Of a stretch of 64,000 bases of DNA, positions 16,519-57,200 are shown in pieces (position 1 is the first letter of the stretch; each line of letters starts with the position of its first letter). The position numbers and the translations under genes were made by a program. The notes beneath the pieces are model-generated. The model did not search any database, was not told the DNA's origin, and worked only from the letters and a program-made list of their open reading frames with translations. The DNA lies in the NCBI GenBank assembly GCA_029959195.1, contig CP114124.1:62001-126000 (forward strand), given 5' to 3'. This stretch comes from Dictyophora rubrovolvata (lineage: Eukaryota > Basidiomycota > Agaricomycetes > Phallales > Phallaceae).

Positions 16519-19299
16519 CTATTTTATAAGAGTTAGCTCTGCAATCGAAACGATAATAGACGACTGACTTCCACTCTTCTGACTACCGGCCATGCCTTTA
16601 CGTTTCTGTCCTACATCAGTTTCGGCGTCATTATACAATTCACTTCCTTCGCCAGCTTCTCCACTCTCATTCTCATCGCGTTTCTTATTCTTCTTTGTCT
16701 TGGGGGACGCATTCTTGCTGTAAGTGGGTTTAGGTATCTCCCCGATAGGCGCGCCAGGACTGGCGGTACACGCTTCACAGAACCATTCGCCTTCGGGTAC
16801 TTCACCAAGTGGTGGACTAAGACAAGTCAGATGATACGGAGTATCGCACTGCTCATGAAGAAAAAGATTTATTAATGAGAGATGGCCATGCACGTTCTTA
16901 CACGCACACATTGATAACCACCCCCTGACGTAGCATCAACATAATATCAGTATACGCACCTTCTCGCATTCCAATAAGGTTTCATCTTCGTCTCCTGTAT
17001 CTTTATGGCATCCTGCGCACGCTTCTGGAACTCCGTCAAGGTCAGCTGGATGTCGTGGTGAATCAGATAATTGTTGACCGGGTTTGGCTAGAAAGAACGC
17101 CGTGTTTTGGGCTGCCGCGATGCTATTGTAGTATTCCGGAATTAGCCATGTGAAGTAAATCGATCATGAAGCATACTCTATAACTTCAATTCCGTTTAAA
17201 GGAGCTACTCTGGTTGGTTTTGTTGCGCTTTTGGGTTGATCTTCGCCCAGACCGAGTTCGCCTGGAAGGTGACACGATCGCGTCAAAAAGCCCCTCTAAA
17301 CGCGTTTATGTTTGGACACACCGTTAGCTGCGTTCTGGCCCCTGTTATGGCAAAAAAAAAAAAAAGGAAGAATAAACGTGATGTCATCCACCTATAGTCA
17401 AAACCAACACCTACCATGCAATTGTCATAACACTTGCATCGTCCTCGTCGATACATAGAGCAAAGTGTGTGACGCCGCCACTAGCCGCATGGAACATCTT
17501 GCAAGCCCTAGTTATGGTTAATCTACGTGTTTTGCCTCCACAACCAGTACACGTACTGTATGTCTGGGAGATACTTAAATGTCGTATACGGTTGTCCAGT
17601 CGAACCTGTAGGTGAAAAAAACACGCTTCCTCAATAAACTGAAACATTGGAAACCTATGGCGAGTAAGAGAAAGCGAAATAAACTGCACCATCTCCCGAG
17701 TTTTTCCACTGTGATTTAACATGGCTTTAGTCACTAGAATCGCGATAGACGTAGCCATAAGACATGCCTTTCCAGCGACCCAGTACATCCTATTACGGTC
17801 GATGACTACACTGTTAGTTGGCCCGGCAAATATTTTAGAAGCTCTTGTTAGCTCGTTGGCTCCAGCAAACTACGGTGTTCGATCAGCTAAAACACCTCGT
17901 AATCGTCGTTGCGCGAACCTGTGGAACGACCTTGGGAATGAGCACGTCTTGTTGATCGCCTAGGCCGAGTCGGCAATAACCATTATAACCAAAAACATAC
18001 ACGAATCTAATAAGCAATAAAGATACGATAAGAAACAACTGTAAATGGGCAGCACCCCACCCTTCGGCATCTAGCAAGATAGAGTGCTGATTCCCGGAGG
18101 CAATGTCAACAATGGTTTTGTTCGCCAGCCCTTTGACGAGAACTATAGCGACAGTCTTATCGGTCAACCGGTCAAAACTTGAAAAAAAACAAAACAAATT
18201 CCAACCTGGTTCAAAATGAGCGTCATATCCGGTTTTGTTCCCAGCTGTGATGTGCTCTCCAGTCCGCCCGTTTCCTAGTTGACCCTTCTCGCCACTTCCG
18301 AATGAGTACGCTAGACGTGGGACGCTGCGGTTATTTAACACGAAACGAAAACGAAAAATAAAAAGCAGGAACCTTTGCCGGTATCTGTTAAAAGTATAGA
18401 GAAAGTTACACCAGCCGCGGCCTTGACAACACTCTCCTTTTTGCCATTCGACTTGGGTCCGTCCACGAGTCTGAATTGCTGAATTTCTGAGTGGTTGAGT
18501 GGGTGGCCGCACTAAACCATGACGCGGAAAGGGTTCAGAACAAGATAATCATGCTATAATAAACGAAAAAAACACGCACTTGGCCAAATGTGTTCGCTCC
18601 ACAAGACCATACCTCCCCGCCACTACCCACGAGCAGCGAATGACCACGTCCACACGCGGCATGAACAAAACGCGTTCCTTTCGATGCTTTGAGCTGCTGT
18701 GGTGTAACACGACGTGGTGCATTTTCAGAAATCTCATCGACATTGGGAACTCCTAGCGCACAGGACGTATTGCGTCCGAACATCCATGCCGCTCCGTCCG
18801 TATCCAAGGCGATGCAATGACACGCGCATGGTGAGCTGTGGATAGAGAGAATTTTTATATTCGCCAAGGATCGTAGAATATGCGGTTGTAAGAGATCCTG
18901 CCTGTGAAAATGAAAATTAGAAAGTAGACATTCGATGACCACGGAGTGAGGTAAAGTCCTGAGACAATTGAAACCTACCGCTTGTTTTCTTCAGGAGGTG
19001 CACCACTTTTTTCTTTTTTACCCAAGCGCGTCCTATTCAAAGGTGAAAAAATAAAAGCAGGTCATGCCAGCGATTAGTGGATTTGAGACGAGGACGGATA
19101 TGCGGAAACTAGTTACCAGTCAACGCCGCCCGCCAATAAAACTGGGGAAAGCAAAAAAAGGGGTTAAAAAAGGTTATTGAGAAAAGTAAACAGACAAAAA
19201 CAAGTTAAAATGACGGGAACTCTTACCTCTTCCCCACTTTTGTTCCTGTTCGTCTTGAGATTGGGAAGCACTTGTCGAGACACCGGGTTTCTTGTCCAT
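16519..19299 (-). CDS. RCC2-like beta-propeller fused to a C-terminal PHD finger
   Basis: Sixteen exons: 19227-19299, 19117-19141, 18979-19032, 18580-18901, 18373-18511, 18206-18310, 18061-18142, 17919-18006, 17768-17869, 17690-17708, 17557-17605, 17415-17507, 17322-17341, 17177-17261, 16960-17122 and 16519-16848. They sum to 582 codons plus stop. The body is an RCC1 fold with RCC2 (TD-60) hallmarks: RVLLAGGVDW near the start, AACGRGHSLLVG, FGSGEKGQLGNG, GYNGYCRLGLGDQ, and a WKNSGDG blade. The C-terminus carries a PHD finger with Cys454, Cys457, Cys471, Cys474, His479, Cys482, Cys497 and Cys500. PHD fingers read histone H3 tails, so the fusion may tie the propeller to chromatin. Exon 9 ends at a GC donor (AAG|GCATGT, intron 17709-17767). 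Confidence 0.9.
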
Positions 19300-25170: not shown

Positions 25171-27059
25171 ATGCCCAGTGTAGAACTGTTGTATGTCACT
25201 TCTTCAAAAAAATCGGCCATAAACGCTCATTAGGCTGTTTAACCCTAGGTTTGGCCCATTGTTGATTGGAACGTATTTCAACGCCATCCTTTATGGAGTG
25301 AGCTGTGTTCTCAACTCTGACCGTTGTTTTGTTTCTCAGCTTGACTTTTTCTCTAGATTCTTTTAGTTCAAGTAAGTTTACGATCCGCTCTATAAAATCT
25401 TCTTCTCGAATTAGTTTTATAAGAGCTTTATTTATTATCGTACCTATCGCAAGTGCGCTGGACTCAGATCCATTATTGATTTATTTTCTATATCAACCAG
25501 CTATTGAACTTTCTCACAGCGACTCAACTCGATTGCGATATTTCGTAAGTAGTTTGATTGTTTAAACTTGGAAAGTTGATTGATGGCCTCTATAGATACT
25601 ATTTCTAGTCATATGTGATACATTGAACACGGTCTTTGATATAGGGGTCATGTACGAACCCTTGGTTGTTCGTTATGGTAGGCTAGTTTGGATATCCACG
25701 AAGGAATTGCTAACAAGGGATAAAAAAGGAACGCCAAGAGCAACGGAACGTATACCTATCAGTAAGCTCTAGTTTTTTTAAATGTTTAAATGCTTCAACA
25801 ACTACAAATTATGTCTAGTGCTATACGTCGGTAAGCCAAAATAATCTTTCCCTTCGGGAAGGTTGACCTAAAATTTTATGAATAGATCCCATAATGACGG
25901 TGCGTAACTCGAGTAACATATGTACATACGTTCTCCTTGAAGTGTCACACCCTTATTTAGGTTATTATCTCCACCTCCGTGCAATTATATTTCTGCTTGC
26001 GAATCAAGATAATTACCGAGTCCTGGATAATCCCTAGCTTCATAAGCATATTTGTCTTCTGTTCTCTAGGTTGGAAATTCTTTTCGCTCCCTAATGCTCC
26101 AACTCATATTCAACCATCCCAGTCGGTGGAATTGCGACAAGTATATGCAGTACAATACTCGTCAACTTTTCTCAATTAGAGAGTTTCAAAGGCGCGGTTA
26201 TAACCTGGCTGGCTTCGTCAGCAATTGCTGATATCTGTATCACCGCTAGTCTTGTTGTTTCATTGGTAGGTTTAGCCAACGAGTCGAATTTTTATATCTC
26301 ACTTTGCTTCTCTCAGGCCAAACGACGAACCGGCATTGCGAAAACTGACGATCTTATTGATCGTATAATTCGCCGTACGTTTTAACTTTTGATCCATCGA
26401 TATCCGGGAAGTTGACTGGAATGGCTGACTTTTTACAGTTACTATTCACACAGGTGCAATCACTGCTCTATTCGCAACATTGGATCTGGTACTATTTGTG
26501 GCCGTTCCGGTAAGCATCGGTTCCCGTTTCGGAATGTACGTTACAGAGTATTAACCATGGCGAATACACAGAACACTTCACTGTAAGTTGAAAAACACAT
26601 CGTTTAGGGTAATCAATAATCTGATGCATTTTTCGTGGTTCAGCAATTTTGCATTTGATTTCCCTTTAGCTAAGCTGTACACGAACTCATTACTATCGAC
26701 CTTGAATGCGCGTGGAGGATGGTATACTATCGCACAGCAACGTCCCCATGATAGCGTTATCGGATTGAATTTAAGTAGCAGCACCAGTCGAAAGGTATGG
26801 TTTATACTTTATAAAACGCCATGAAGCGTTAACTTTTAACTCGTCGACAGACAGATGAATACATGCATAGCAAGAAAATGGCAGTACGCTTTCGATTTGG
26901 ATTTGGATTCGTCAGATTCAATTCAATTAACCATTTTTAATTCAGTCATCTCCACAAGCTTTTGCTCTGTCAAACGTTACAGCGAATTCTCAGGCGACCG
27001 ACCAACAACAAGACGTGGAAGCTTTAAATTCCAGCATTGATCTAGAGTCGGTCATTTAG
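25171..27059 (+). CDS. DUF6534-type seven-helix membrane protein, copy 1
   Basis: Start ATG 25171 (MPSVELL), end TAG 27057-27059, with about sixteen small exons typical of this family. Splicing yields FGPLLIGTYFNAILYG, ILLVQSFIYYRTYRNDSTR, ILFLVICDTLNTVFDIGVM, DPIMTVIISTSVQLYFCLR, GAVITWLASSAIADICITA, KRRTGIAKTDDLIDRIIR, GAITALFATLDLVLFVAVP, then NFAFDFPLAKLYTNSLLS and LNARGGW. These are the hallmarks of basidiomycete DUF6534/DUF6533 proteins, which have seven predicted helices and an LNARGGW-like end to the last helix. Receptor-like roles are proposed by analogy with GPCRs; no ligand is known. The cytosolic tail is Ser/Gln-rich. All frames connect, so the copy appears intact. Confidence 0.85.
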
Positions 27060-27399
27060 TTTCATACTGGTGAAGGAGATGCAGCTGAGTCTCTGACAGG
27101 TCACAACGGACGTGACGACAAGTGGATAGTAGATGTTCCTCAGGCTGCATAGGAATCTTTAGTTTCAACTGTACTTATCAATTATTTGTATTTCAAACCT
27201 TGTTGCGAAATAGATTTTTATCCATGCAAAGTTGCACTAGGGGGTGAATCAGTTACGGTTTTAAACTACTCGAGGACCGACCCTTAAATAATAGGCGCCG
27301 GACTCTTGCTAATGTTTTTTTGCCGGTTTTTTTGCCGGTTTCAGCTCTCGTCAAGTCACCCCGACTACATTGCAAATGTAGTCGTGGCGCATGGTTAGC

Positions 27400-29458
27400 G
27401 CATGCCCCGATAGTCAACGCAGGGTCAAAGTGTCGCTCAGTCGCTAGTCAACTAGTCACCACTCCTTTCCTGGCTCTCCATGTCGAGGAAATAGGAATCA
27501 GAACCAGACCCACTTATCGTTGGTCCAAGAGTTCCCAATCTTTTTTTATCTCATTGCGAAGCAGGACATGCCTAATAGCACATATTTTACATTAAATGAT
27601 CCTAATGACGATGGAACGTTGGCCGTCGTACCACCTCTCCCGTTTCAACACCCGTTATATCTATTCGTTACTCCTCGCATATGGTGCAAATTCCCGGACT
27701 CGGAAACATCTCATGAAATATGAACCATATCAACTAAATCAGTCACGTTTTCAACGATTTCAAGAGGCGGTACAGGAAGCAGGTCCTTCCATTCCTGGTA
27801 TTCGTGAGACGGGAAACGGGGAACAACCTCCTCCGGAATGGGACACTTGGAGTGCTCGCTCCTAAAGGGAAAGGCCAGGAGTTCTTCCCTTTAGAGTTCC
27901 ATTTGGTATTCTTCAACGGACAATTTTGCAACCCATGTGCTCAAGCAAATAGCTTTGTATTGCCAGTAAGCTCCGAGTCGCGTCGTCTAATCCATTCACA
28001 CAATTCATTCTTGTTTCAGGCTCTACTTAGACTACACCTGGCAAGGATGTGGACCCATTCTGGATCACATGGAGTCAATGCCACTGAGTTCTCTCCGAAT
28101 GAAATCCTTGTGATTGTGCCTAATGTTTGCTTTGTGGCAGAACCAGCAACTCTGGCAGGACTTCCTGCGGGGCAGTCGATGTCCAGGGTTCACTGGCATC
28201 CCTACTTCTTCTCTTACATATCAAGTGACTGGGATGGATCAGGTATTACTGATATTGCTGGACCCTGGCTCGGCCGCTCCTGCGAAAGAACCTGAAGACT
28301 CTACTATGCACAGATATCCTCCTTTCAGGATTCGCGATTGTTACCAAGGCACTGAATTCATATGCAGCTGGGTGCAGGTTCTAACTGTATGGTCTCCTTT
28401 ATCAAACTATGCTTTTGGGTTGATGATTTTTGACAGGGTTCGTATGGGGGCAGGATTCAGCTTGTTACAAAAGCTACGTGGCCATCAAGCTTGAAATAAT
28501 TGAAGAGGAGAAACTTTCGTTGTTGTCATATGAAACCGCTGTTTGTGCTCAGCTTGAAGGCGTTTGGACCACAATGCCCATGTTATTGCGGCAACACTGA
28601 TGGACAGGGTGGGGCCGAACCTTGAATGCCTGTGTAGGTTCTGTTGAGGTAAACTGTCTTTAAAAACTGTTCCCATGTTTAAAGAGCGAATAGTAGGTAT
28701 TTACATATAACTTCCCCTTGACGATGAGAAAGTTGATACAAGATTCTTCAGCTTTACGACCATCGAATCGGAGGTCCATGCTCATGGAATTATCATTCGC
28801 GATATTAAACCTCAAAACTTTGTTCTGGGCATAGTTGAAGGATACAAATGTCTGTATTTATTGATATGGGATTCGCCAAACCCCTTTTTTAGACCCAACG
28901 ACGGGCGAGCATATGTCGTTCCGGGATAAAAGAGCAGACCTTGGCCCGCACACCGGTCTTTTCAAGCCATAATGTCCATTTTGGTTTGGGTTCGTGTCTG
29001 CACGATGAGAAATATTTGTGTATGCTCATGTATCTATATGTAATAGAACCGAGTCGACGGGACGACGCTGAATCAGTCGGCTTCTCTCTTTTTCTCGACA
29101 TTCACAGTCACGATCGACTTCCGTGGCATATATGCACTGGACCTTCCAAGCTGAAAGAGTTTGGGAACATGAAACGTGGTAAGCCTATGTCGGATTTGCG
29201 CACTCGATCTCCTGGCGATTATTCGAACACTGTCGGCCACTTGCGTTTGAAGGGAAATAGGACTATGGAAATCTGTGAGAGCTTCTTCGTCAGGAGATGA
29301 AGGAACGTGGTTGAGAGTATGATTGGGAATATGATTGGTAGGTTTGTGGAGAACGGGGCGCGCTTTTCTCGGATGAGTATAAGCTCGATGAAGGATTCAT
29401 AGAATCATTGTGTCACGACTCACTGTCAACGGACTTTGTGAGAAAGGGTGTCGTTTAG
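27400..29458 (+). pseudogene. decayed HAD-like/CK1-like fusion gene, copy A
   Basis: Homologous along its length to the copy at 45732-48725. The N-terminal part (FTLNDPNDDGTLAVVPPLPF, LYLFVTPRIWCKF) is intact in pieces. After YTWQGCG...HMESM (about 28080) about 0.85 kb present in copy C is missing: the sequence jumps to SPNEILVI-like DNA, removing most of the HAD-like domain. The kinase part follows with VAIKLE (about 28480-28500), RDIKPQNF (28800-28825), IDMGFAK-like DNA and RRDDAE...FSLFL, and is interrupted by several frame changes. It cannot encode the full protein. Confidence 0.8.
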
Positions 29459-30568
29459 TCGTGTCGCTTTGTTGAATTAATTATTATCAGTTACCTTAAT
29501 GTTATGATTTCGTCGTGATGCACGTCGCTATGTTCATGTACGTTTGTAGGCGAAGTCATTTGTCGCGGGGGTCCCTGTAAGATGAGTCTCTGTTGAATAA
29601 TAAATAAAAACTGTTCCGGCAGCGGGACATCTACCGTCACAGAGTTCAAGGCAAAGGCTACGTGCTCGTGTTGAACTCCGAACGAGCGCGCTAAACCACC
29701 AAGTACGAAGAATAGACGCCGACTCCTTCAGTCGGTGGACTCGCTGCTGCCATCAAGCTGCCATTATCCTTCGCCGGACTAGTAGGGGTTATGTAGCAGG
29801 TAGTGCAGAGAGGTGTAAAGGTTATGAGCATGTAAGTTGGCATGTAAGTTGGCATGTAAGTTGTGTCTCAGTTGGCTGTAGTCATGTACTGAGAAAAAAG
29901 ACATGTTCAAGCTCTCCTTTGCTTTCCGTGGCGACGATAACTCGGCCCATGAGTTTTCTGATCTCGACACCTTATGATACTCAGTTGAATCCCAGCTGCT
30001 GCCAGTGAGGCGTACTTTCACACCACACTGCCATGGTAAGTTCAGCGCTGTTTCTCCTGGCATACCTGGCAGTGACAGCCAATGTAAGCAGAGACCATAT
30101 GCTCGAGGTACTCTGTCATCTAAAAAATTTTGTAATCAATCTTTCACGCCACTTTAGTAGAACCTCGGCGGTTCTAATCATTTAAGTGAGTCCATCTCGA
30201 TTTGCTGGAGTTCTACAATATGACCACCTCACATAACATACGTAGATCACCATGTTGCTTCATTTCCATCCGTGCCTTCATTTTCAGAAGAAAATAATTT
30301 GAGGCCTGATCCTGTGCGGTTGAGACGGATCTCAGCCGCCCGGCGCCACGGCAGTATAGCCAGCAGTCAGCCACGGGCAGCACTTCCACGGACTGAGCGC
30401 CGGCTACGCCAAACTGAATGTTTTGAACATCATTGAATCCACCTCATGAATTCATTGTCACTGGCTAACGTTTTAAGACAAAAACCGACGTCCTGTTCTT
30501 TTCCCTGCTTTCTTTTCCCCTGCTCCGGCCCCCGTCAATCGGACGTGTTCACCAGAATTTCTTGAAAT
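29459..30568. other. intergenic region between copy A and the second DUF6534 gene
   Basis: No supported gene. It contains a 12-bp tandem repeat at 29829-29863 and only short frames otherwise. A minus-strand frame at 29779-30063 owes its repeated NLHA residues to that repeat. Confidence 0.5.
29829..29863. repeat. 12-bp tandem repeat, about 3 copies
   Basis: CATGTAAGTTGG is repeated almost three times without change. Each unit contains GTAAGT, so it is also a tandem array of consensus splice donors. Confidence 0.9.
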
Positions 30569-32495
30569 ATGTCCAATGTACAGCTATTGTAAGTTACCTT
30601 GTAAAGAGAAAAAGCATATTTCTCAACCTTTAGATTTGGTCCATTGCTCATCGGAGCATTCCTCAATACCATACTTTATGGTGTAAGTTGCGGCACGAAT
30701 CAACGAACGACTGAACTTTGAAATATTAATCCAGATTCTTTTACAGATTCTCCTAGTACAAGTACGTCGGTGATCGTTCTTCTTGTCTCGGTCACTAAAT
30801 AATTCAACAAGAGCTTTATCTACTTCCGTACCTATCGCAAGTGGGTTTCATTCATTTATCGTGGCTTCGTTAGCTTGTTAACCAACTGCCAAAACTTTTT
30901 ACAGAGATTCAGCCCGGTTGCGATATTTTGTACGAAGTTCAATCGCTCGTTGTGTAGATTCATTAAAATCATTATCTACAGGTACTCTTTCTGGTTCTTT
31001 GCGACACGTTGCATACGGTAGTTGACATAGGAATCATTTATGAACCCTTGGTATTTCGCTATGGTACGTCGAACTGGCTATTCCGACTGAAGGCGCTACT
31101 GACCAACTTGGTCGCGAAAGGAACTTCAGGAGCGACTCAGCGCGTGCCTATCTGTATGTTTTGTTTTGCGTTGAGATTTTTTGCCCTTTAACAGAAAATC
31201 GCGCGCAGTGTTTCCTTTCAGTATGTGAAATTGAAAGTAGTTTTGCTTTCACGGCAAGTTGACCCAAGCTTAATATTATAGATCCTTTGATGACGGTATG
31301 TGGATACCCCTTGATTACTCTTGTTTTCAGTTGTCTTACACCGCCTCATTTACGAAGGCTGTTATCTCCTTTTCAGTCCAGTCATTCGCCTTTTGGCGTA
31401 TCAAGATAATTACCAGGTCATGGATGATTTTGGGCCTTATAGGCATATTCATGTTTAGTTCTTTGGGTAAACCAAATTCACTTTTTTTTAAAAAAATGTC
31501 ATTTTTATATGTAGTTGTCTCAGCTGGTGGAGTTGCGACATGCATTTGTGGTACGATATTTGACGACTTTACTCGGCTAGAGAGGTTCAAAGGCGCGGTT
31601 ATAACTTGGTTGATCTCGTCTGCCATTGCGGATATATTAATCGCTACCAGCCTTGTCGTTGTTTTGGTGAGAATAGGTGCATTAGATCCAGGCCGCCCTG
31701 TCAGATCCTAAATTTATACCAGGCTAAACGACGAACAGGCAACGCGAAAACAGATGATGCCGTTGATCGAATCATTCGTCGTATGTGTATCCCCACTGAA
31801 ATATCAACGACACGGGGATTAATTATTACTTGCAGTTTCCATTCATTCGGGTGCCGTTACAGCTTTATTTGCAACCTTGGACGTGGTGTTATTTGTAGCT
31901 ATCCCTGTAAGCGACAGTCTCCCTAAACGTTTTACTTGAAATATTAACCACGAATATCAAGAACAATTCGCTGTAAGTCATTTAGCTCCTTGTGGATAAT
32001 CTTCATCCACATAATTCATTCTGAAATCCAGTAATTTTGTCTTCGACTTTCCGCTGGCTGGGCTGTACACAAATTCGGTGTTATCGACCTTGAATGCTCG
32101 TGGAGGATGGTATGATACCAGACAACAGCGTCCCGACGATAATTTTATACACAGGCCGTTATCCCGTAATATAATTGACAATCAAAAGGTATTTCATTCA
32201 TCATTCTTGGGACAATGTTGAATGCAAACATGTTTACTTGGTTAGCAGACGGGCAAGTACATGCATAACCAAACAATAACAGTGGGTAATATACTTCAAA
32301 ATATCTCCCCATCTAATTGCACACTTTTGGTTTTAGATATCCTCGTGTGTGTTTTCCAACTTCTCGAGTCCTTCAGCAGTTCCCCCAATATGGCTTCAAC
32401 AGCAAGGCGAACAGGCTTTGAATTTCAGCACTGATCCGGAGTCAGTCGATCATGATAGAAATACATCTCTGAAAATGGGTCTCATACCTGAATAA
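30569..32495 (+). CDS. DUF6534-type seven-helix membrane protein, copy 2
   Basis: Start ATG 30569 (MSNVQLL), end TAA 32493-32495. Exon for exon it parallels copy 1: FGPLLIGAFLNTILYG, FIYFRTYRK, VLCDTLHTVVDIGIIYEP, DPLMT, SFAFWRIKIITRSWMI, GAVITWLISSAIADILIAT, KRRTGNAKTDDAVDRIIRR, GAVTALFATLDVVLFVAIP, FVFDFPLAGLYTNSVLST, LNARGGW. The short exon after VPI (about 31157-31260) is uncertain: the straightforward splice breaks frame before DPLMT, while a 32-base intron ending at ACCCAAG (31265) would keep it. The C-terminal tail differs from copy 1 (ESVDHDRNTSLKMG). Probably functional, with that one doubtful junction. Confidence 0.78.
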
Positions 32496-33583: not shown

Positions 33584-35555
33584 TTAGGAGGATGGTACAT
33601 TGAATGTGGGGATAGATCCAGTTGTCGTTAAGTCCATTTTCAGAGATGTATCCCCAACGGTATGATTGACATCAGTAGCCGACTCCAGATCAATATTGAA
33701 GGCTTGTTCGCCTTGCTGCTGTTGCCGGCTTGGAGGGACCGCTGGAAGACCTGAAAGTTCAATTATGGTTGAGGATGTCTGAGTTCAATTTTGTGCGATC
33801 AGATAAAAATATGAAAAGATCTTCACATGACAAAACCTACTGTTTTCTGGCTATGCATGTACTGGTCCGTCTGCCAGAGGGATAAATATGTTTGTACTTT
33901 GTTTCAAAAAAATGATTAATGAAATACCTTTTTGTTGTTACTACTGTTACCAGTTGTATTACTTGTATTCCATGATGGCCCAAAAAGAACGTTATCTTGA
34001 GGACGCTGTTGTGAAATGGTATACCATCCTCCGCGTGCATTCAAGGTCGATAACAATGAGTTTGTATACAGCTTAGCCAGGGGAAAATCGAAGGCGAAAT
34101 TGCTAAACTCCGAAATGTATTAGAGGGGCGGTCATTCAAAGCGTGAGACCTACAGTGAAGTGTTCTTGATATTTCTTGATTAATTATTGAAAGAGACTTC
34201 TGGCCACTGATGCTTACCGGAATAGCCACGAATAGTACCACGTCTAGTGTCGCAAATAAAGCCGTAACGGCACCTGTGTGAACGGTAACTGCAAGCAATC
34301 AATCAATCCTCGCTGCTGATATTCCCATAAGGGTGCACGCACGACGAATGATTCGATCAATAGCATCGTCCGTTTTCGCGTTGCCGGTTCGTCGTTTAGC
34401 CTGACATGAACTTAAGATAAGACAACATAAAATTTATCCCGTTCGTTCTCACCAAAGAAATGACAAGAGTGGTAGTGATAGAAATATCCGTGATGGCGGA
34501 TGAAGCCAACCAGGTTATAACCGCGCCTTTGAAGCTTTCGAGCTGAGCAAAGTTTACAAATATCGTGCTGCAGATGCAAGTCGCTATTCCGCCAACTGGA
34601 ACATCGACTAGTAAGAACGAATGTTTAGCAAAAAGAGATGTGCTTGGCTTACCGAAAGAACAGAAAACGAAAAAGCCTATAAGGCAAGGAATTACAAATG
34701 AATTGTTGATGACTTTAATGCGCCAGCAGATGAATAGCTGGACTGAGGTGGAGATAATGACCTTTGTGATAGGTGATAGACTTTAAGCCAGAATGTGAAG
34801 AAAGGAATCGCCCTGTCGACATACCGTCATTAGGGGATCTGGTATAAACATAAGTCAACTTGTTGGGAAAAGCAGAACCACCGTGACATACCGACATACA
34901 ACACTACGCGTAGTTTTTCAGACTAAACATTGGTATACGTTCAAGAATGTCAAACAAAACTTACGAACGGGCACGTGTTCAGTAGCTCTTGGCGTTCCTT
35001 TTCATACATATTAGCAGTGCTTTGATATTACGCTACAGCTACCATCCGACATACCATACCGGAATACCAGTGGTTCATAAATAACTCCTACATCAAATAC
35101 CGTATTCAGAGTATCGCAAATGACCAGAAATAGTATCTGCATGCGTGTATTTCAATTGATATACGGAATGTAGCAGCAGAGTAACTTACAAAGAATCGCA
35201 TTCGGGCTGAATCTCTGTCAAAGCGTTCAACAGTCGGTCAGAAAGCCGACAGGGCTTAACGCTAAATGAATGAAACTCACTTGCGATAGGTACGGAAGTA
35301 AATAAAACTCTTGTTGAATTATTAGAAACAGAAAGTCATTTATAGGACCGATCATTGACATACTTGCACCAGAAGAATCTGTAAAGATAATTGAGATTTC
35401 AGCAGTGTCGCGATTGATTCAGATCGCAGCTCACTCCATAAAGGATGGTATTGACAAATGCTCCGATCACGAGTGGACCAAATCTAAAGGTTGAGATGAA
35501 CATTTCCCAAGTCGCTTTTCTACACGATGACTTACAAAAGCTGTAAACTGGGCAT
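33584..35555 (-). CDS. DUF6534-type seven-helix membrane protein, copy 3 (inverted)
   Basis: Start ATG 35555 (MPSLQLL), end TAA 33584-33586. Recognisable exons give FGPLVIGAFVNTILYG, ILFLVICDTLNTVFDVGVI, TPRATEHVPV, DPLMTVIISTSVQLFICWR, GIATCICSTIFVNFAQLES, GAVITWLASSAITDISITT, KRRTGNAKTDDAIDRIIRR, VHTGAVTALFATLDVVLFV, FAFDFPLAKLYTNSLLS, LNARGGW, and a tail with QQQQGEQAFNIDLES. The Gln-rich motif GEQALN/GEQAFN in the tail is shared with copy 2, so copies 2 and 3 look like closer relatives. It lies tail to tail with copy 2. Confidence 0.8.
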
Positions 35556-39489: not shown

Positions 39490-41221
39490 GCACTCTCAAA
39501 AGCGGACGACTCCCAGTTGGACTCTCCTTTTTCAATCATCCAGGAGGTCGCACGTTATCTTAATACGACCGCGTCTCGATCAGGTGTTCAAGACGCATTC
39601 GCACGCCCTGGAGAGTTGAAGTTTTCTGAAGACGCTTTCGCTTCCATATCGTCTATAGTTAAAGTTGGATATGCCGTCATAGCTTTGCCATTTGACGGTT
39701 TTAAATCCCGGGATATGGTCTCTCCAATACCAGCCTGTTAGTCGCTCGCATTCTACGACGCCGTGAAAGATAAACAGACTCAGACTCATGACGTTTTTAC
39801 GTGGAATGAACTGGTTGAAGTTTGCAGAAAGTCCCAGTTCTCTGAAATCTCTCCGGATGAAATCCTGGTGGTAACGCCTAATCTTTGCACTGTGGCAGGA
39901 TTTCCTACGGCATTTATCCGACGTCGTTGCAGTCGATGTCCAGGGCTGAGCGTCCCAACGTTTTCTCCTACATATCAAATGACTGGGATGGATCAGGTAT
40001 TGCCGATATTGCTCGACCCTGGCTCGGCTGCTCCTGCGAAAGAACCCGAAGACCCTATGCACAGATATCCTCCTTTCAGGATTCGCGATTGTTACCAAGT
40101 CACATGCATGCTCGGTGCGGGTTCTAATCATATGGTCTCCCGTGTTTATCTCCCGTGTTTAACCATGCATTTGAACTGATGATTTTCGTTTCGGCAGGGT
40201 TCGTATGGGGTGGAATCCAGCTTGTTACAAACGGCTACGTGGCTCTCAAGCTTGAATGCTATCATATGAAGCCGCTGTTTATGCTCAGCTCGAAGGAATT
40301 AAAGGAGTTGTGAGGGTTCGCTGGGTGGACCACAACGCCCATGTTATTGTCATGGACAGGCTCGGGCAGAACCTTGCGCAGGTTTTGTCGCAGTAAGTTA
40401 TCTTTGAAGACTGTGCTTATACTTGAAGGGCAAGTGGTGAATATTTTCACATCACTTCACCTTGACGATGAAAAAACTAATGCAAGGTTCTTCAGCCAAT
40501 GTCCATCGAAGAAGCTCATGCTTGGAATTATTATTCGCGATATTAAGCCTCATAATTTTGCTCTGGGAATACTTGAAGAGTACAGATGTCTGTATTTGCT
40601 CGATATGGGATTCGCCAAACTTTTTTTAGACCCAACGACGGGCGAGCATATGCCGTTCCGGGATGGAAGAGCAGGCCTTGGCACACCGCTCTTTTCAAGC
40701 CCTAATGTCCATTTTGGTTTGGGTTCGTGTTTGCATCCATTCCGATGAGAAGCGTTTGTGTATACTCATGTATCTCTACGTAGCAGAACCGAGTCGACGT
40801 TGAATCAATCAGCTTCTCTCTTCTCTACTTCATTCACCGCTGACTTCCGTGGCAAGCACCTAACGTACCTTCTAAGCTGAAAGAGTTTGGGAATATGAGA
40901 CGCGGCAAACCTATGTCAGATTTGCTGGTCCAATCTCCTCCTTGCTTCACGTCGTGCTTTGAACATTGTCGATCACTCGCATTTGAAGAGCAACCGGACT
41001 ATGGATATCTGAGAGATGTTTTACGTGAGGAAATGAAGAAACATAGTTTGGAGTGTGATTGGGAGCATGACTGGTGGCTTTGTGGAGAACGGGGCACGCT
41101 TTTTCTGGATGAGTATAAACTCGAGGAACGATTCATAGAACCAGTGCGTCACTGTCAAGACACTTTGCGAAAGAGAAGCTGTCTTTTCGTACTTTGTTTC
41201 TGGACTACTAAGTTGAACTAA
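39490..41221 (+). pseudogene. decayed HAD-like/CK1-like fusion gene, copy B, 5'-truncated
   Basis: Homology to copy C (45732-48725) begins near 39490, at the position of copy C base 46990 or so, so the first 1.3 kb is absent. Pieces present: ARYLNTTASRSGVQDAFARP, GYAVIALPFDGF, ISPDEILVVTPNLC, PTYQMTGMDQVLPILLDPGS, RDIKPHNFALGI, YLLDMGFAKLFLDPTTGEH, and a long intact-looking C-terminal frame at 40895-41221 (MRRGKPMSDLLVQSPPCF). There are a stop after IPAC in the HAD-like part, a deletion next to the VALKLE lysine strand, and a disrupted RRDD region. Its 3' end abuts the intergenic spacer that also follows the GMC gene. Confidence 0.8.
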
Positions 41222-41323: not shown

Positions 41324-41782
41324 TTCTACACAAAAACTCGGACTGATGCTTAATCCTCAACGATGCTACGCGACGCAGGTATACAAAACTTCCGAATAAT
41401 AGTCAATTGACCTTTATGTATCCGCTTCAACGATATTCAATCGATAAAAGGCTACACATATCAATTATTCAGTGTTTACATACTACAAAACATGCAGACC
41501 TGCATTGGCAAGAAGAATCTCCCATCGCCTCCGATCGTACATCGGGCCGATAAGAAATACAGTTAGCGGCATTCCCCGGCACCGTGGCACTAATCACGCA
41601 TTCATTATCTCATTCACACCCGCACATTCCATTCTTTGTCATCTGTTCAGTCTTATGGTCATGAGCTCATTTTCCATATATAAAAAGAAAAGAAAAGACC
41701 ATTTCAAAGGCCGAGTTTCCCAGCCTTGCTTTCACTTGTTCTCTCCTTTTTTCTCATCGAAACTCGTACTAGGTGCTCAAAG

Positions 41783-42723
41783 ATGTCAACAGATACCGTC
41801 CCAGCCGTTCTTAACTACTTCATGCCGCCTTTTGACGGATCCAAACCTTGGTTCAACGTAGATTATAATCCAAAAACAGGTGAACGAGATTCAAATTTCA
41901 CATTGGAAGTACGAACATTGGACGTCGAGAACATCAGAGGACACGAGGATGATTACGATCTTGATTCTTCCGGATTCAGATTTATGAAAAGTCCATCGGG
42001 ATTCACAAATTTTGAAGATGATACGGCAATTAAAGATGGGTATTATAAAGAGAGCGCTGAGGTTATCAAGAAAGTTACCGGTGCTAGGAGGGTAGTTTTG
42101 TTTGATCACAGTGCGTGTCACTGCCTCATGTTTTTTTTTTTTGGAGTTGATCGTATTAATTTAAAATAGCCATTCGGAGAAATAGGCCAGACGTACTTGA
42201 AATCTCTGAACAAACGCGGGGACCTGTACCAAGAGTGCATGTCGATCAGACCACCGAATCGGCAACACGCAGAGTGCACATGCACACACCCGAGAACGTC
42301 GCCTCAGACCTTCTGAAACACCGGTTTCAGATCATTAACTTCTGGAGACCTATCAACCACGCCGCCTTAGATTGCCCACTGGCACTGTGCGATTACAGGA
42401 CGATCGACTGGGAGAATGATTTGACACCGACAACCATCAACTTTGCTACTCGGGTGGGCGAAACATTCAGTGTCAAGTATAACTCTCAACATAAATGGAA
42501 GTATCAACGTGGTATGGAGACGGACGAAATTGTATTGATCAAATGGTATGTTTTTTGTTTTTTTTTTCATATACTCTCATTAATTATTTAATGTCATAGC
42601 TTTGACTCGTGCATGGATAATAAAACTGCTATTCTCACACCTCATACTGCATTCGTGGATCCGACAACCCCAAAGGACGCCCCACTCCGTGAAAGCATCG
42701 AACTCAGGGCGCTTGTCTTGTAA
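41783..42723 (+). CDS. CmcJ/AsaB-like (GA4 desaturase family) protein, intact copy
   Basis: Three exons: 41783-42110, 42170-42545 and 42600-42723, giving 275 aa. Family signatures are present in order: RVHVDQTTESATRRVHMHTP, then FQIINFWRPINHAALD, PLALCDYRTID, YNSQHKWKYQRGMETDEIVL, CFDS...ILTPHTAFVDPTTP and LRESIELRAL. Members include cephamycin CmcJ and aspergillic-acid AsaB and are thought to be iron/2-oxoglutarate-type oxygenases; substrates in mushrooms are unknown. No signal peptide, so cytosolic. The end is ambiguous: the frame stops at 42723, but a donor (TT|GTAAGT at 42719/42720) would extend it into ALVFVRQ and on to about 42799. A decayed inverted paralogue lies at 49216-50157. Confidence 0.9.
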
Positions 42724-45731: not shown

Positions 45732-48725
45732 ATGTCCCATAGCTTTGTGGCAGCGAAATTATCACCGAATCTACCTAAATGGTCAATACATGGTCCACGC
45801 GTTGCTCAATCGCTAGCCACCACTCCTTTCCTCGCTCTCCATGTCGAGGAGCCTGACCCAGACCCGCTCATCGTTGGTCCAAGAGCTCCCAATCTTTTTG
45901 TTATTTCATCCGCCAAGCCAGACATGTCTAATAGCGAATATTTCACGTTAAATGATCCTAATGACGACAGAACATTGGCCGTCGTACCACCTCTCCCATT
46001 TCAACACCCGTTATATCTATTCGTTACTCCTCGTATATGGTGCAAATTTCAGGATTCCGCAACATTCGAACGTCTAGTGAAAGCTGAACCATATCAACTA
46101 AGCTCGTCAAGTTTTGAACGGTTTCAAAAGACGGTACAGGAAGCAGGTCCTTCCATTCCCGGCATTCGTGAGACAGGAAACGGGGAACAACCTCCGCCGG
46201 AATGGGACACTTGGAGTGCTTACTCCCACCGGGAAGGGCCAGGAATTCTCATGCTACGAAAGTATGTCCCTTTAAATTTCGATTTGGCTCCCTTTAAGGC
46301 ACTCCCGGGCAATCTTTCCACCGATGTGCTCAAGCAAATAGCTTTGTATCGCCAGTAAGCTCATCTACGAAACTTCGACTCTTACCGTTTTACAATCTAT
46401 GCTCGTTTCAGGCTGTACTTAGACTACACCTGGAAGGGATGTAGAGCCACTCTAGAATACATGGAGTCAATGAAAACGGTGAATAGAACCAAGCATAATC
46501 TTGTTAATCTGGTGGGATGCTGACCCGGAAGTTGAGAACATTCCCCTTTTAGAGCTTCACAAACGAGTAGTTCAATTACCCTCGTTGAATCTGACCCGAG
46601 ATCGAGCTCTTGATCCCTCAGTAAATGTCGCCAGACCGTCCGCGATTTATCTAAAAACGCAGCCTATACTCAACGACGGAGATCCTGACGAAACCAATGA
46701 TATCGATGACGACTCGGACGATGCCGTCGACCCTCTTTTGAAGAAAGCTGGGGTTGTTCCTGCCGCCAAACCTGGGAAAATCAAACTGATTGCATTGGAC
46801 TGCGATGCCATTATAGTGAGTATATGAATTTATAAAAACCGTCTCTGAATCCTCATTCGTCTCATTTTCAAATTACATAGAATAATGATAGGGTTTTGTC
46901 AAGCGTTTTAGCCAACCTCTTTCCGCGCTCCGTTCATCAATTCGCAATTGAGGAATTGCTGTATTTATACGTGGAGAAGGAATCACTCTTGAAAACAGAA
47001 AGTTCCGAGTTGAAGTCTCCTTTTCCGGTCATCCAGGAGATCGCGCGTTACCTTAATACGACCGTGTCTCAATCAGATGTTCAAGATGCATTCGCTCGCT
47101 CTGAAAAATTGAAGTTTTATGGAGACGCTTTCTCTTCCATAGCATCTCTGGTTGAAGCCGGATATTCCGTCATAGCTTTGCCATTGGACGGTTTTGAATC
47201 CTGGGATATGGTCTCTCAAATACCAGGCCTGTCGCTCGCATTCTATGAAGCCGTGAAAGATAAACAGACTCAGACTCACGAGGGTTTTGCGTGGAATGAA
47301 CTGCTTGAGTTTTGCAAAAAGTCGAACTTCCCTGAAATCTCTCCAAATGAAATCCTAGTGATAACGCCTAATATTTGCTTTGTGGCAGAACCAGCAACTC
47401 TGGCAGGATTTCCTACGGCGTTTATCCGACGTAGGGGCAGTCGTTGTCCAGGTCTCAGCATCCCTACGTTTTCTCCTACATATCAAGTGACTAGGATGGA
47501 TCAGGTATTGCCGATATTGCTCGACCCTGGCTCGGCCCCTCCTCCGAAAGAACCCCAAGACCCCAAGAACATTTATCCTCCATATCCTCTTGTAAGGATC
47601 CGCGATTGTTATCAAATTACATGCATGCTCGGTGCAGGTTCTAATTGTATGATATCCTGTATTTAACTATGTGTTTTAAGTTGATGATCTTTGTTTTTGT
47701 AGGGTTTGTATGGGGTGGGGTCCAGCTTGTCACAGGAGGCTACGTGGCTATCAAGCTTGAAGAAATTAGGGAGGGGAAACCCTCGTTGTTGTCATATGAA
47801 GCCGCGGTTTATGCTCAGCTCGAAGGGATTAAAGGAGTTGTAAGGGTTCGCTGGGCGGGCGTGGACCACAATGTCCATGTCATTGTCATGGACCGGCTCG
47901 GGCCGGACCTTGAATGCCTGCGTAGTTTCTGTCGAGGTAAATTGTCTTTGAAAACTGTTCTTATGCTTGGAGAGCAAATGGTGAATATTTACATATTATT
48001 TCCATGAAAAAAATTGATGCAAGATTCTCCAGCTTACGACTATCGAAGAGGTTCATGCTCGCGGAATTATCGTTCGCGATGTTAAACCTCAAAATTTTGC
48101 TCTAGGATTGATGGAAAAATACAAGTGTCTGTATTTGATCGATATGGGATTTGCTAAACTCTTTTTGAACCCAGCAACGGGTGAGCATATGCCATTCCGG
48201 GATGGTAGAGCAGGCCTTGGCACACCGATCTTTTCAAGCCATAATGTCCATTTTGGTTTGGGTTCGTTTTGCATCCATTCTGATGAGAAGCATTTGTGTG
48301 TACTCATATATCTCTACGAAATAGAACAGAGTCGACGGGACGACGTTGAATCAATTAGTTTCTCTCTTCTCTACCTCATTCACGGTCGACTTCCGTGGCA
48401 AGGAATATATGCACCTGACGTACCTTCCAAGCTGAAAGAGTTTGGGAACATGAAACGCGGCAAACCTATGTCGGATTTGCTGAATCGATCACCTCCTTGC
48501 TTCACGCGATTCTTCGAACACTGTCGGTCACTCGGGTTCGAGGATGAACCAGACTATGGATATCTGAGAGAGCTTCTACGTCAGGAGATGAATGAACATG
48601 GTTGGGAGTACGATTGGGAATATGATTGGTGGGTTTGCGGAGAACGGGGCACGCTTTTTTCGGATGAGTATAAACTCGAAGAACGATTTATAGAACCCGT
48701 GCGTCACCGTCAACGTACCTTGTAA
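45732..48725 (+). CDS. HAD-like domain fused to casein-kinase-1-like domain, copy C (nearly whole)
   Basis: Exons ..46354, 46412-(about 46480), (about 46501)-46815, 46881-47637, 47703-47980, 48033-48261 and 48325-48725. ATGs at 45732 and 45925 are possible; conservation with copy A favours 45925 (MSNSEYFTL). After an unknown N-terminal domain (PRIWCKF, YTWKGC) and WWDADPE comes a region with IALDCDAII, GYSVIALP and ILVITPN, which matches the spacing of HAD phosphatase motifs I, II and IV, but with catalytic residues mostly replaced. The kinase part has MLGAG...GGVQL, VAIKLE, RDVKPQNF, DMG in place of DFG, FGLEQSRRDDVES and RLPWQGI, all CK1 hallmarks. One frame mismatch between 46470 and 46501 remains unexplained. 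The role is unknown; perhaps signalling or a pseudo-phosphatase scaffold. Confidence 0.72.
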
Positions 48726-49215: not shown

Positions 49216-50157
49216 TTACAAGACGAACGCTCTGAGTTCGATGCTTTCACGAAGTGGGGCGTCCTTCGGGGTTCAATGTCGGATGCACGAATGCAGTATG
49301 AGAAAATAATAGTTTTACCATCCATGCGCGAGTCAAAGCTGCGAAATCACATCATTACATAATGAAAGCATACCAAAAACAAAACAAAACATACCATTTG
49401 ATTAATATAATCTCGTCCGTCTCCTTGGTACTTCCATTTGCGTTGAGAGTTATACTTGACAATAAACGTTTCGCCCACCCGAGTAGCAAATTTGATGGTT
49501 GCTAGTATCAAATCGTTCTCCCAGCCGATCGTCCTGTAATAGCACAGTGCCAGTGGGTAATCTAAGACGGCGTGGTTGATAGGTCTCCAGAAGTTAATGA
49601 TCTGAAACCGATATTTTAGAAGGTCTGAGGCGATATTCTCGGGTGTGTGCATGTGCACTCTGCGTGTTGCCGATTCGGTGGTCTGATCGACATGCACTCT
49701 TGGCACAGGTTCCCGTGTTTGTTCAGAGACTTCAAGTACACCTAGCCTGTTTCTCCGAATGGCTATTTGAGAATAAAAATTGATGTAATCAATTCCAGAA
49801 AAAAAAAACATGGGGCAGCTACACGCACTGTGATCAAACAAAACTACCCTCCTAGCATCGGTAACTTTCTTGATAACCTCAGCGCTCTCTTTATAATGCC
49901 CATCTTTAATTGCCGTATCATCTTCAAAATCTGTGAATCTCGAAGGACCTTTTCATAAATCTGAATCCGGCTGAATCAAGATCGTAATCATCCTCGTGTC
50001 CTCTGATGTTCTCGACGTCCAATGTTCGTACTTCCAATGTGAAATTTGAATCTCGTTCACCTGTTTTAGGATCAGAATCTACGTTGAACCAAGGTTTGGA
50101 TCCATCAAAGGGCGGCATGAAGTAGTAAAGAGCTGCTGGGACGGTATCTGCTGACAT
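49216..50157 (-). pseudogene. decayed CmcJ/AsaB-like gene, inverted paralogue
   Basis: Starts MSADTVPAALYYFMPPFDGS at 50157 and follows the intact copy closely (RVHVDQTTESATRRVHMHTP, FQIINFWRPINHAVLD). Compared with the intact copy it has an extra base after RFMK (about 49950) and about 8 bases missing in the KWKYQ...DEIVL segment (about 49425), so the reading frame is broken at least twice. Substitutions such as CYYRTIG for CDYRTID are also present. Identity is high, so the inactivation is recent. Confidence 0.85.
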
Positions 50158-50637
50158 CTTGATTCTTGGGCACCTTCTAGTACGAGTTTCGACGAGAAAG
50201 AGGAAGAAAGCAAGGCTGGGAAACTCGGCCTTGAAATGGTTTTTTTCTCTTTATATATATATGGAAACTAAGCCCATGACCATAAGACTGAACAGATAAC
50301 AAAGAATGGAATGGAATGTGAAGGTGTGCCAAAGAGACAATGAATGACGTGATTAGTGCCGGGGGAATGCCGCTGACTATATTTCTTATCGGCCCGATGT
50401 ACGATCGGAGATTCTTGCCACGATGTCTCGCAGACTGCATGTTTTGGACCACGAGTGTAGGAAACAGTAGGATGTAAATCCTGAAGAATCGGCTTGATAC
50501 ATGAAGTCTTCTCTCGATTGAACATAATCATTGTCAGATCTAAAGGTCCATTGAATAGTATCCATGGGCTCGGTACCTGCCGCCGCAACCTGCGTCGCGT
50601 ATTAAGTATCAGTCCGAGCTTTTGTGTAGAAATGTCC

Positions 50638-50778: not shown

Positions 50779-53585
<2,807 letters not shown>

Positions 53586-54203: not shown

Positions 54204-57200
54204 TCACAAGCCGAAAATATTATATACCGTTTCGCGGAGGTCCTCTGCGTCTGTTGGATGTTCTATCCGAAGCATGGCATGCCCGCTGGGATGTGCACCT
54301 GATGAATGGCAAGCATCACATAGATCATAATCGTCGCAAATAAGGCATTTCCATCTGACACCAGTAATTGGATCAACCCTGCATCCGTCGCAAATGATCT
54401 TGTCATGAGACATCAAAACCGCTTGTGTCTAAATCAATATACAAAGCAAAGTTTGTTATGAATGAGAAGCAGCTTACAGTCGCGACTTTCAATCCTCAAC
54501 ATCCGATGTCTTATCGAATGGCCCTTCGTAGCACATCCGGCAGAACGACAATCCGTGCACAAGTCATATAAGTTGCATACCAAGCACTTCCACCGTACGC
54601 CAACGATAGGTTGAATACCGCAACTGTCGCAACTAAAACCAGCGTGAATGTCTGGGCGAGAGAGATCGATCATTTGAGAGATTGTAGGCGTTTTGACAAT
54701 CTCTTTCTGGACCACCAGACATTGCTCTTTGGTATTTATGACGACTTCTCCAGGTACATTGCCTTCAGGTACATTGTCTTTGGTTGGTGCTCCGTTCTCC
54801 ACTGGTACTGATTCTGATGCCGTTTCTGGCCCTGAGACTGGCTCAGGCCCTTTCTCCGTTTCCGTGACCGGCGTTGCAGGCTCGATCGATATGGGAATAT
54901 CTAATGTAGCCGCGGATTCAGTGGCGGCGTCGGGACGGGTCAATATGGACACCTTCTCCTTTTCTCCTGTCGTGTCCAAATTTCCAGTCTTCTCCTTTTC
55001 TTCGTTAGGTAACTCCGTCTTCTCTTCATTCACCGATTCAACCTTTTTTCCGTCGCCGATGTCAACGGACTCCACCTTCTTAACATCTTCAATATCCTGA
55101 GTCACAGTTGCTGTAGTAGTGGTGGTGGTGGTAGTCGCACTCGTAGTCGTAGTCGTAGTGGCCACAACAGAAAATGCTTGAGAAACAGATCCTTCTGCCG
55201 GTGCATCTTCTACAGTGCCATTTTGCTCCTGTGTGTTAATATCATTACTCAATACTTGCCGGTCCGACGCAGTTGACGACTTGGGACTCGGCAACGAGCT
55301 GACCGAATCTCGTCTACTTGGAGGACGCGGGAAGAATTTTTCTCTCGAAATTTGTCGTTCAAGAGCAGCTTCTTCGAAAGTTATTTTCTCCAACTCCATA
55401 AGATCTTTACCTGCAAATGCCTCGGGAGGTACAACCATTAGGTCCTTCCAAGCTCTTTTGTGTTTTTCAAAAGCAATCATTAGGACATGGTCGTGCGCCC
55501 GAAAGGAAATCTCACTTTTGATCAAAATTGGCTGCCATAGCCATGCTTCTGGCGGCTTCGGACCAGACGCGTGAAAGTTTGCGGGCGTCCCAGGTAGGTT
55601 GGTTCTGTTGTATGAAGTCCTAGTGGAATGGAAAATATATTATAGCCGGTTTTCTTTTTTTCTTTTGACCGAAATAATAAGATTTACCTTTGTCCGATGG
55701 ACATTACGATCGAGTCGCACCTTCAAATCTTTTCAAAAAGAGGGTACAAAAAAAAGGTAAGCAGATGAACTGACATGAAGAACATAATCTCCGGCTTCCA
55801 GATTGTCGGTGAACAGATTGACAGTACGCGTCCACAAGATGGAATATTCGGAACGGCCTATCACCTTCTCTTCTCCTTTTTTGTAAATAACAAAATCAAA
55901 AGTCCAGAGAGAATACCCAGAAAGTTCGTCCCAGTATCGATCATCAGCTTGGGAGAGGACGATGATGGATGGGGTGTCGTGCTCGATAGAAAACGTGACT
56001 GGTGGGTAAAAGTTTCCCAATGAACAAAGAGGATGTTCAAAAAAAAATTGAATCTGCACTTACACGAAACATCACCATACTGCCACGCAGCAGGATATGT
56101 TCTCCCAGTTACGTTAAGCCAATGAGATGACATAACCCACGAATCATCGAAAAGTTGCGTTCTTTCCACTGCATACCACGTTTGCAAAAAGTCCTCGTAT
56201 TCCATGATGAATGCACCATCATCACCGAACTGATGGTCTAGAGCATCAAGTGCGCCAAGCCACTCCTTTGACCATTCTTTGCTTCCGTCACTCCACCTTC
56301 CGGTCCACTCGCTTTTGCCCCAAGGGTTTCTCAACTTCAAGAAACGCTTGCCTTTGTACTCGGTTGCTTTTAGAATACTGTACGCATGTGAGCTGAAGAG
56401 ACCTAGATGACGCAAGAATATCACGTGTTTGTTAGAATCATTTGACGAATATGACGCCAAAAGAAGAAGAAGTAAAAAATCACCATTAGTGGTAGTGTTA
56501 TCAGTTGCAGCTCCTTTTCCAGCTAACGAATCGAGATAGCAACCGAATAACCGATCTTTTGTAGCACGCATCAAATCATTGTGCCAAAATTCGTCGGTAT
56601 CAAGAATATCCTGGCGCCGCCCAATGAGCTGATAAGCGCAAAGAAGGAAAAGTGATATGATACGCGTACGTTGGTGAACAACACTTGAGAAACTCCCCTA
56701 AAGAGGCAAAACTTTAGTACGAGAAAGAAAGGGGGCGAAAATCACACGCGTATCCCGCATCACGTATGTGGATTGCGGATACTGTTACTCACCCCGTCAA
56801 ATCTTCCAAGGCTTGGAATGCGAAACCACCGTTCAAAGCGGCATAATCTCCATGAAGTTTGGCAAACGCTTTTTCGACGAGCGGTCTAAAAAGATTCAGG
56901 AGAAGTATAAGCAAGAAAAGTGATGGGTTTTTGTTAGATGACGTACACCCAAGTTTCGTTCTCCTGGCTGGATTTGGCAAAATACAACGTCTTGCTACCT
57001 TTCCTCGCGACTCTCTCGTAAAGGTCTTTTTCTTTGTGATACAGATTTTGACTCTTTCGTTTGTTTGAAAAATAAGAAAACAAGGATAAAAGAATAAGCA
57101 ACGGACAAACCTCGGAACTGAGGGTTTCATACTTCGGAACCGACGTGCATAGTTGGCTGGATAATACATTTTCACTCGCTAAAGCAGTCCAAGGAAGAAT

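Follow-up and report, generated by a model that had tools for sequence, protein, structure and literature searches.

CK1 kinases usually have short extensions and use acidic substrates. HAD phosphatases carry an Asp at position +2 of motif I, and bacterial type II dehalogenases, another HAD group, are dimers. One study describes the reliance of CK1 on primed substrates and assigns R178 to anion site 1, which is thought to bind the phosphate of such substrates (PMC7012598). According to the same source, the tau mutation R178C makes the kinase less active on the PER2 FASP region and more active on the degron, and FASP priming is likewise reduced by R178A (PMC7012598). AzhA, the fungal L-azetidine-2-carboxylate hydrolase, is catalytically active, and its fungal homologues are reported to conserve all four HAD motifs (PMC8016842). 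A gene that joins a HAD-like segment to a CK1-like kinase is found in a 64,000-nucleotide stretch of Dictyophora rubrovolvata DNA (contig CP114124.1, positions 62,001 to 126,000), here called the window. Both of its parts belong to known families, and the combination is apparently undescribed; no HAD-CK1 fusion was described among the matches listed for this architecture, for mushroom CK1 and for kinomes more broadly in open-licence PMC papers.

Gene A and its decayed relatives

The first-pass annotation described a single gene at 45732-48725 that joins an N-terminal domain, a HAD-like segment and a CK1-like kinase. Exon joining at GT-AG borders bears this out. The gene, here called copy A, comprises seven exons (Table 1) that form a single frame of 880 aa with exactly these limits, starting with an ATG at 45732 and ending with a stop codon at 48723-48725, and all of the motifs quoted earlier are present in its translation. 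The six introns are 52-65 nt each, and all are GT-AG. The N-terminal region is followed by the HAD-like segment (about residues 311-540) and then by a complete CK1 domain (about residues 565-860). Landmark motifs lie at residues 318 (DCDAII), 420 (VIALP), 484 (ITPN), 593 (VAIK), 685 (VRDVKPQNF), 708 (DMG) and 748 (EQSRRDD), and exon 4 carries motif II (VIALP), the motif III site (QTHEG) and motif IV (ITPN) of the HAD-like segment.

Table 1. Exons of copy A and extents of its two paralogues, in window coordinates
Feature	Coordinates	Strand	Residues	Content
Copy A exon 1	45732..46354	+	1-208	N-terminal region, no known family; copy C has the same splice sites for intron 1
Copy A exon 2	46412..46478	+	208-230	
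Copy A exon 3	46537..46815	+	231-323	Acidic linker; motif I DCDAII (residues 318-323) in first HAD strand
Copy A exon 4	46881..47646	+	324-579	HAD cap and core, linker, start of kinase glycine loop
Copy A exon 5	47703..47980	+	579-671	CK1 N-lobe (VAIK, alphaC Glu)
Copy A exon 6	48033..48261	+	672-748	CK1 catalytic loop VRDVKPQNF, DMG, GTPIFSS
Copy A exon 7	48325..48725	+	748-880 and stop	EQSRRDDVES, C-lobe, C-terminal tail
Copy B, decayed paralogue	39490..41191	+		5'-truncated in HAD cap; in-frame stops, frameshifting deletions, intron 4 donor lost
Copy C, decayed paralogue	27392..29478	+		N-terminal region kept; many stops and frameshifts

B and C both match A at the borders of introns 5 and 6; at intron 4, C matches both borders, and B has the acceptor alone. 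Introns 2 and 3 fall where both paralogues have no sequence, and the model is least secure at intron 2 (GTGAAT..TTGAG). A frameshift at 46480-46536 was considered and rejected, as a 58-nt GT-AG intron located there brings the frame back. Similarly, a donor at 47638 in the glycine loop was replaced by one at 47647, which yields the spacing typical of CK1 and is also present in C. Division of the locus into two separate genes is unlikely: exon 4 reads without interruption between the HAD cap and the glycine loop, so that the HAD-kinase junction lies inside one exon, and this junction is also retained in decayed copies B and C. An internal promoter of copy A may give a kinase-only transcript.

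Exon 1 has a single match in the PDB, at E=1.4. An acidic stretch with one Ser is found directly before the HAD-like segment (46672-46734, residues 276-296), and Asp or Glu accounts for 11 of the 23 residues from 274 to 296. This stretch could be an internal CK1 substrate or pseudosubstrate.

Copy C is missing about 240 residues, corresponding to about 229 to 471 of A, across the boundary of the N-terminal region and the HAD-like segment. All three copies have the HAD-kinase junction, so the fusion predates the duplications. Within the stretch of exon 4 that remains in copy B, the lengths of all three indels (3, 18 and 9 nt) are multiples of three, compared with two of six in its kinase exons, which suggests that the HAD frame of B was kept by selection for a time. 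Gene A belongs to a small local family whose copies duplicate and decay.

Other duplicated segments lie nearby. A 2-oxoglutarate dioxygenase-like gene is found near copy A (49347-50250, minus strand) and a second near copy B (41684-42591, plus strand). The frame at 49347-49952 matches 7eus (E=2.2e-12) and NvfI (6.4e-9) in the PDB and has no Pfam match, and the segment 49123-50738 matches 42812-41219 at 82.7%, in opposite orientations. A GMC oxidoreductase gene of the aryl-alcohol-oxidase type occupies 51264-53332 (minus strand), within which 51264-51620 has no Pfam hit. This neighbour and the intron sizes of copy A point, tentatively, to a mushroom-forming basidiomycete. The segment 44433-45079 (plus strand), by eye the 3' part of the GMC oxidoreductase gene, is 96% identical to 51700-51048 and inverted; copy A is thus bracketed by inverted duplicated segments. 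Three diverged copies of a further repeat, with hydrophobic frames and 66-68% identical DNA, are located at 25246-26758, 30569-32478 and 33634-35555, the third being inverted with respect to the other two; the two frames of this repeat that were searched have no Pfam match. Pfam matches were also obtained for frames at 14833-15807 (plus), 17883-18548 (minus), 54434-55639 (minus), 55861-56697 (minus) and 8712-9377 (minus), and the families, in the same order, are squalene/phytoene synthase (7e-41), RCC1 repeats, a ZZ finger, a calpain protease adjoining it, and TPR repeats.

The CK1 kinase domain

The kinase part of A covers the whole CK1 domain and is identical to CK1delta at 117 of 293 positions. 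The earlier label of CK1-like kinase agrees with the PDB search, in which the matches greatly exceed what chance would give: the top one is a casein kinase I-like protein from rice, 3sv0 (E=4.1e-73), and CK1delta (2.4e-72), Hrr25 (2.4e-58) and Yck2 (4.1e-56) are also matched. When the 55 PDB sequences at E<=1e-10 are ranked, 38 CK1 chains come first (spanning delta, epsilon, alpha, gamma, Hrr25, Yck, plant and Gilgamesh), with 8 tau-tubulin kinases next and 9 VRKs last. By bit score, the nearest PDB chains are plant CKI-like and CK1delta/epsilon. Pfam reports Pkinase alone (7.3e-11). The kinase domain is thus full length and scores best with CK1 members, which places it in the CK1 family.

Compared with CK1delta, the catalytic Lys and Glu, the HRD Asp, the Asn and the DFG Asp are all retained in A, and the residues kept include K38, E52, M82, R127, D128, K130, N133, D149, G151, K154, G215 and K224. 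Changes are found at F20/G21 (Asn/Trp), H126 (Val), F150 (Met) and R178 (Ile). The glycine loop reads GAGSNW as compared with GSGSFG and lacks the third Gly, and the HRD and DFG motifs read VRD and DMG. The first-pass annotation had counted the kinase among the domains with altered catalytic motifs, and DMG is present as it said. This change need not affect catalysis, however, since the five core residues are kept and DMG is common to all three copies (in C after a frameshift), which makes it a family trait and not a lesion of gene A. DMG was rejected as an inactivating lesion on the same two grounds, namely its presence in all three copies and retention of the catalytic Asp. The kinase of A looks able to work, probably with altered substrate reading, but activity is not assured, because the third Gly of the glycine loop is gone and the HRD His is Val.

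Anion site 1, which in CK1 serves primed substrates through R178 and K224, is incomplete in A. K224 is kept, and the position of R178 is occupied by Ile in A, Leu in B and Val in C. R127 and K154 of site 2 are kept. K171 is replaced by Arg. The loss of R178 is relevant to how substrates are chosen and leaves descent from the CK1 family untouched.

The HAD-like segment

Residues 311-540 of A give no Pfam hit, and phmmer finds no HAD match for the segment in the PDB. In NCBIfam, the 234-aa segment matches only TIGR01428 (HAD type II; E=0.061), with 13.3 bits against a cut-off of 125.4. NCBIfam reports kinases only for the whole 880-aa protein, and neither a shorter HAD piece nor copy B has any match in NCBIfam or Pfam.

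The segment was also aligned by hhalign to a profile of 22 sequences from type II dehalogenases and near relatives, comprising 19 non-redundant loci and 1qq5, 3um9 and 1jud. The loci come from a dehalogenase collection in which 80 of 570 related loci were kept and L083-L102 were added, 96 of them with a usable domain; one of the 19, L102, itself scores below the TIGR01428 cut-off. A scores 26.5 over 169 columns, and its residues 312-507, from IKLIALDCDAII to TAFIRR, are colinear with positions 2-193 of the 193 in the profile. A plus B scores 31.0, and B alone scores 27.6 over 67 columns. Taken by themselves, the hhalign probabilities are low, at 12% for A and 34% for A plus B. In shuffle controls, which were run on A, none of 200 shuffles reaches A's score (best 24.3), and the best of 40 others is 21.3. 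Reversed A scores 14.8, the N-terminal region 18.2, the kinase 15.0, and the best of eight other window ORFs 19.9.

Structure prediction, proposed earlier as a check on the HAD assignment, was run in two forms. The piece that was folded is exon 4, which is without the first HAD strand. Its single-sequence AlphaFold2 model has a pLDDT of 42 and is uninterpretable, and the Foldseek search with it gives a best E of 2.4 and no HAD protein among the best 50 of 60 matches. With 14 bacterial dehalogenases as alignment rows, pLDDT is 61, and HAD proteins fill the first 45 places among the best 50 of 155 matches (E<=10): the first 28 are haloacid dehalogenases (TM 0.33-0.46, rmsd 6-10 A), and the next 17 are HAD relatives. 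Two matches of this model are at E<=0.001, the best at 9.3e-4. Because the alignment supplies the fold, the result is partly circular and indicates compatibility with a HAD fold, not independent proof.

It is possible to suppose that the middle segment is not a HAD domain and resembles the motifs by chance, and the lack of a HAD match in Pfam, phmmer and the single-sequence fold search, the marginal TIGR01428 hit and the low hhalign probabilities all point in that direction. This is nevertheless unlikely, given a profile match that is colinear from end to end at a score that neither the shuffles nor the other window ORFs attain. The score of copy B alone points the same way, although B is a paralogue and so is not independent. 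The HAD match of A is weak though colinear throughout, and the segment is a probable descendant of type II haloacid dehalogenases, not an enzyme of that family.

In motif I of A, D318 occupies the nucleophile position and D320 the +2 position, where the dehalogenases used have Tyr. The Ser column of motif II contains Leu in the hhalign alignment and Ala in a MAFFT alignment, and the surrounding VIALPLDG includes neither Ser nor Thr. The motif III Lys column contains Thr in both alignments. In motif IV, hhalign aligns TPN with SSN and places Val opposite the Asp. The MAFFT alignment, which combines exon 4 with 14 bacterial proteins and so does not include motif I, gives the same columns for motifs III and IV. 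From the HAD catalytic set (Asp in motif I, Ser/Thr in II, Lys in III and Asp in IV), A retains only the motif I Asp. Because the other three are absent, the segment is probably catalytically dead. The proposal in the first-pass annotation that a dead HAD-like domain is fused to CK1 is thus probable from the residue losses in the alignment. It had correctly noted motif II without Ser/Thr and motif IV without its usual acidic pair; motif I (DxD) is intact, and the replacement of the motif III Lys by Thr had been missed.

An active kinase-phosphatase is also conceivable, in which the HAD domain works with unusual residues, DxD being kept and a Lys of VKDK replacing motif III. The Asp at the +2 position of motif I, where the dehalogenases have Tyr, favors such an enzyme, as do two Lys residues upstream of the motif III position, one 4 and the other 6 residues away. 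However, two alignment methods agree on Thr in motif III and on a non-acidic residue at the motif IV Asp, motif II has no Ser or Thr, and selection on the HAD domain is loose (see below), which together make a bifunctional enzyme highly improbable.

Scans of viral contigs that find close relatives only revealed no relative of the HAD exon or of the exon 6 kinase piece, and a scan of the same kind revealed no relative of the HAD segment in bacterial and archaeal genomes. Plasmids likewise contained no relative of the HAD segment, the one match, to a polyketide synthase (E=6), being due to chance.

Selection, possible role and relation to known systems

Constraint on A was assessed in the sequence common to all three copies, mostly kinase, with 360-363 sites per codon position. 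Changes found only in A, relative to B and C, number 19, 9 and 39 at codon positions 1, 2 and 3 (p=2.9e-5). The corresponding numbers are 28, 15 and 36 for B (p=0.014) and 33, 29 and 35 for C (p=0.75). The bias in A differs from that in C (p=0.009) and not from that in B (p=0.31), and B and C, the reference for the test, are themselves decayed. Sequence of B before A position 47004 aligns only as non-homologous noise and was dropped from this test and from omega comparisons with B. For the A lineage, omega comes to 0.24 over the whole three-way overlap and to 0.20 in the kinase; in the HAD end common to the three copies it is 0.58, from 7 nonsynonymous and 4 synonymous changes, which are too few to judge. 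These data show purifying selection on A across the region that the three copies have in common, most of which is kinase.

Between A and B, omega is 0.22 (0.15-0.32) in the kinase and 0.61 (0.37-1.12) in the HAD part (Fisher p=0.02, from rounded counts). The gap is accompanied by a reduced dS in the HAD part (0.21 versus 0.44), dN there being little higher (0.13 versus 0.10). Between A and C, omega in the N-terminal region is 0.39 (0.25-0.63). Because the A-B omega of the HAD part is looser than that of the kinase, this part may be drifting. Gene A looks maintained, and the HAD part appears to be under the weakest constraint measured.

Two other readings of the gene are affected by these values. 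Perhaps A is itself decaying, as B and C have done, and the fusion no longer serves a function. Decay has already overtaken two of the window's three copies, and the omega interval of the HAD part includes 1. On the other hand, A has an uninterrupted frame of 880 codons, its splice sites are intact, and the changes specific to it are strongly biased toward third positions, so a gene in the course of failing is quite improbable. Alternatively, the HAD and kinase domains might both be inactive in a protein that only presents surfaces, a view near to that of the first-pass annotation. The altered glycine loop, VRD and DMG are consistent with a scaffold of this type, but the Lys, Glu, Asp, Asn and Asp used for ATP/Mg binding or catalysis are retained, and omega for the kinase on the A lineage is low. 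We consider such a scaffold improbable.

Our preferred reading, held tentatively and with slightly less than even confidence, is that A encodes a functional CK1 kinase whose N-terminal extension contains a probably non-catalytic HAD domain, and that it would find its substrates by docking, not by phospho-priming. The HAD domain would act as a binding or pairing module, with putative dimerization or docking taking place through it. Together with the N-terminal region, it might bring the kinase to particular partners, and may set its location or pairing. Substrate choice would then be made by docking instead of by the phosphate-reading site 1 of ordinary CK1. In a more elaborate and rather unlikely proposal, a fungal CK1 lineage swapped phospho-priming for a built-in docking module. 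The half that senses substrate or ligand would derive from a bacterial-type metabolic enzyme, now dead, and the kinase would have lost the arginine for primed substrates. The HAD domain could then bind a small 2-substituted acid, which would make the kinase metabolite-responsive.

If the docking reading is correct, a CK1 that has ceded its specificity to an attached dead enzyme would illustrate how a constitutive kinase can acquire direction, and gene A would offer a naturally occurring parallel to the tau (R178) mutation of circadian clock studies. It would also provide a pseudoenzyme domain kept in frame without its catalytic residues, for which two decayed copies form a built-in reference.

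Like CK1 delta/epsilon, plant CKI-like kinases and Hrr25, A has a whole kinase domain with the signatures VAIKLE, KPxNF, SRRDDxES, LPWQG and PDYxYL. Unlike these kinases, it has an N-terminal extension of ~560 residues, as well as DMG, VRD, GAGSNW and Ile in place of R178. Another fungal HAD protein is AzhA, and L-azetidine-2-carboxylate hydrolase structures are found at ranks 29, 32 and 37 among the best 50 of 155 matches of the pLDDT 61 model. The HAD-like segment resembles type II L-2-haloacid dehalogenases (TIGR01428; 1qq5, 1jud, 4ce6) in an alignment that stays colinear between motif I and the core's end, in a putative cap segment between motifs I and II, and in the nucleophile Asp. It differs from them in sharing only 16-22% identity, in the loss of the motif II Ser, the motif III Lys and the motif IV Asp, in having DxD for DxY, and in being part of a larger protein.
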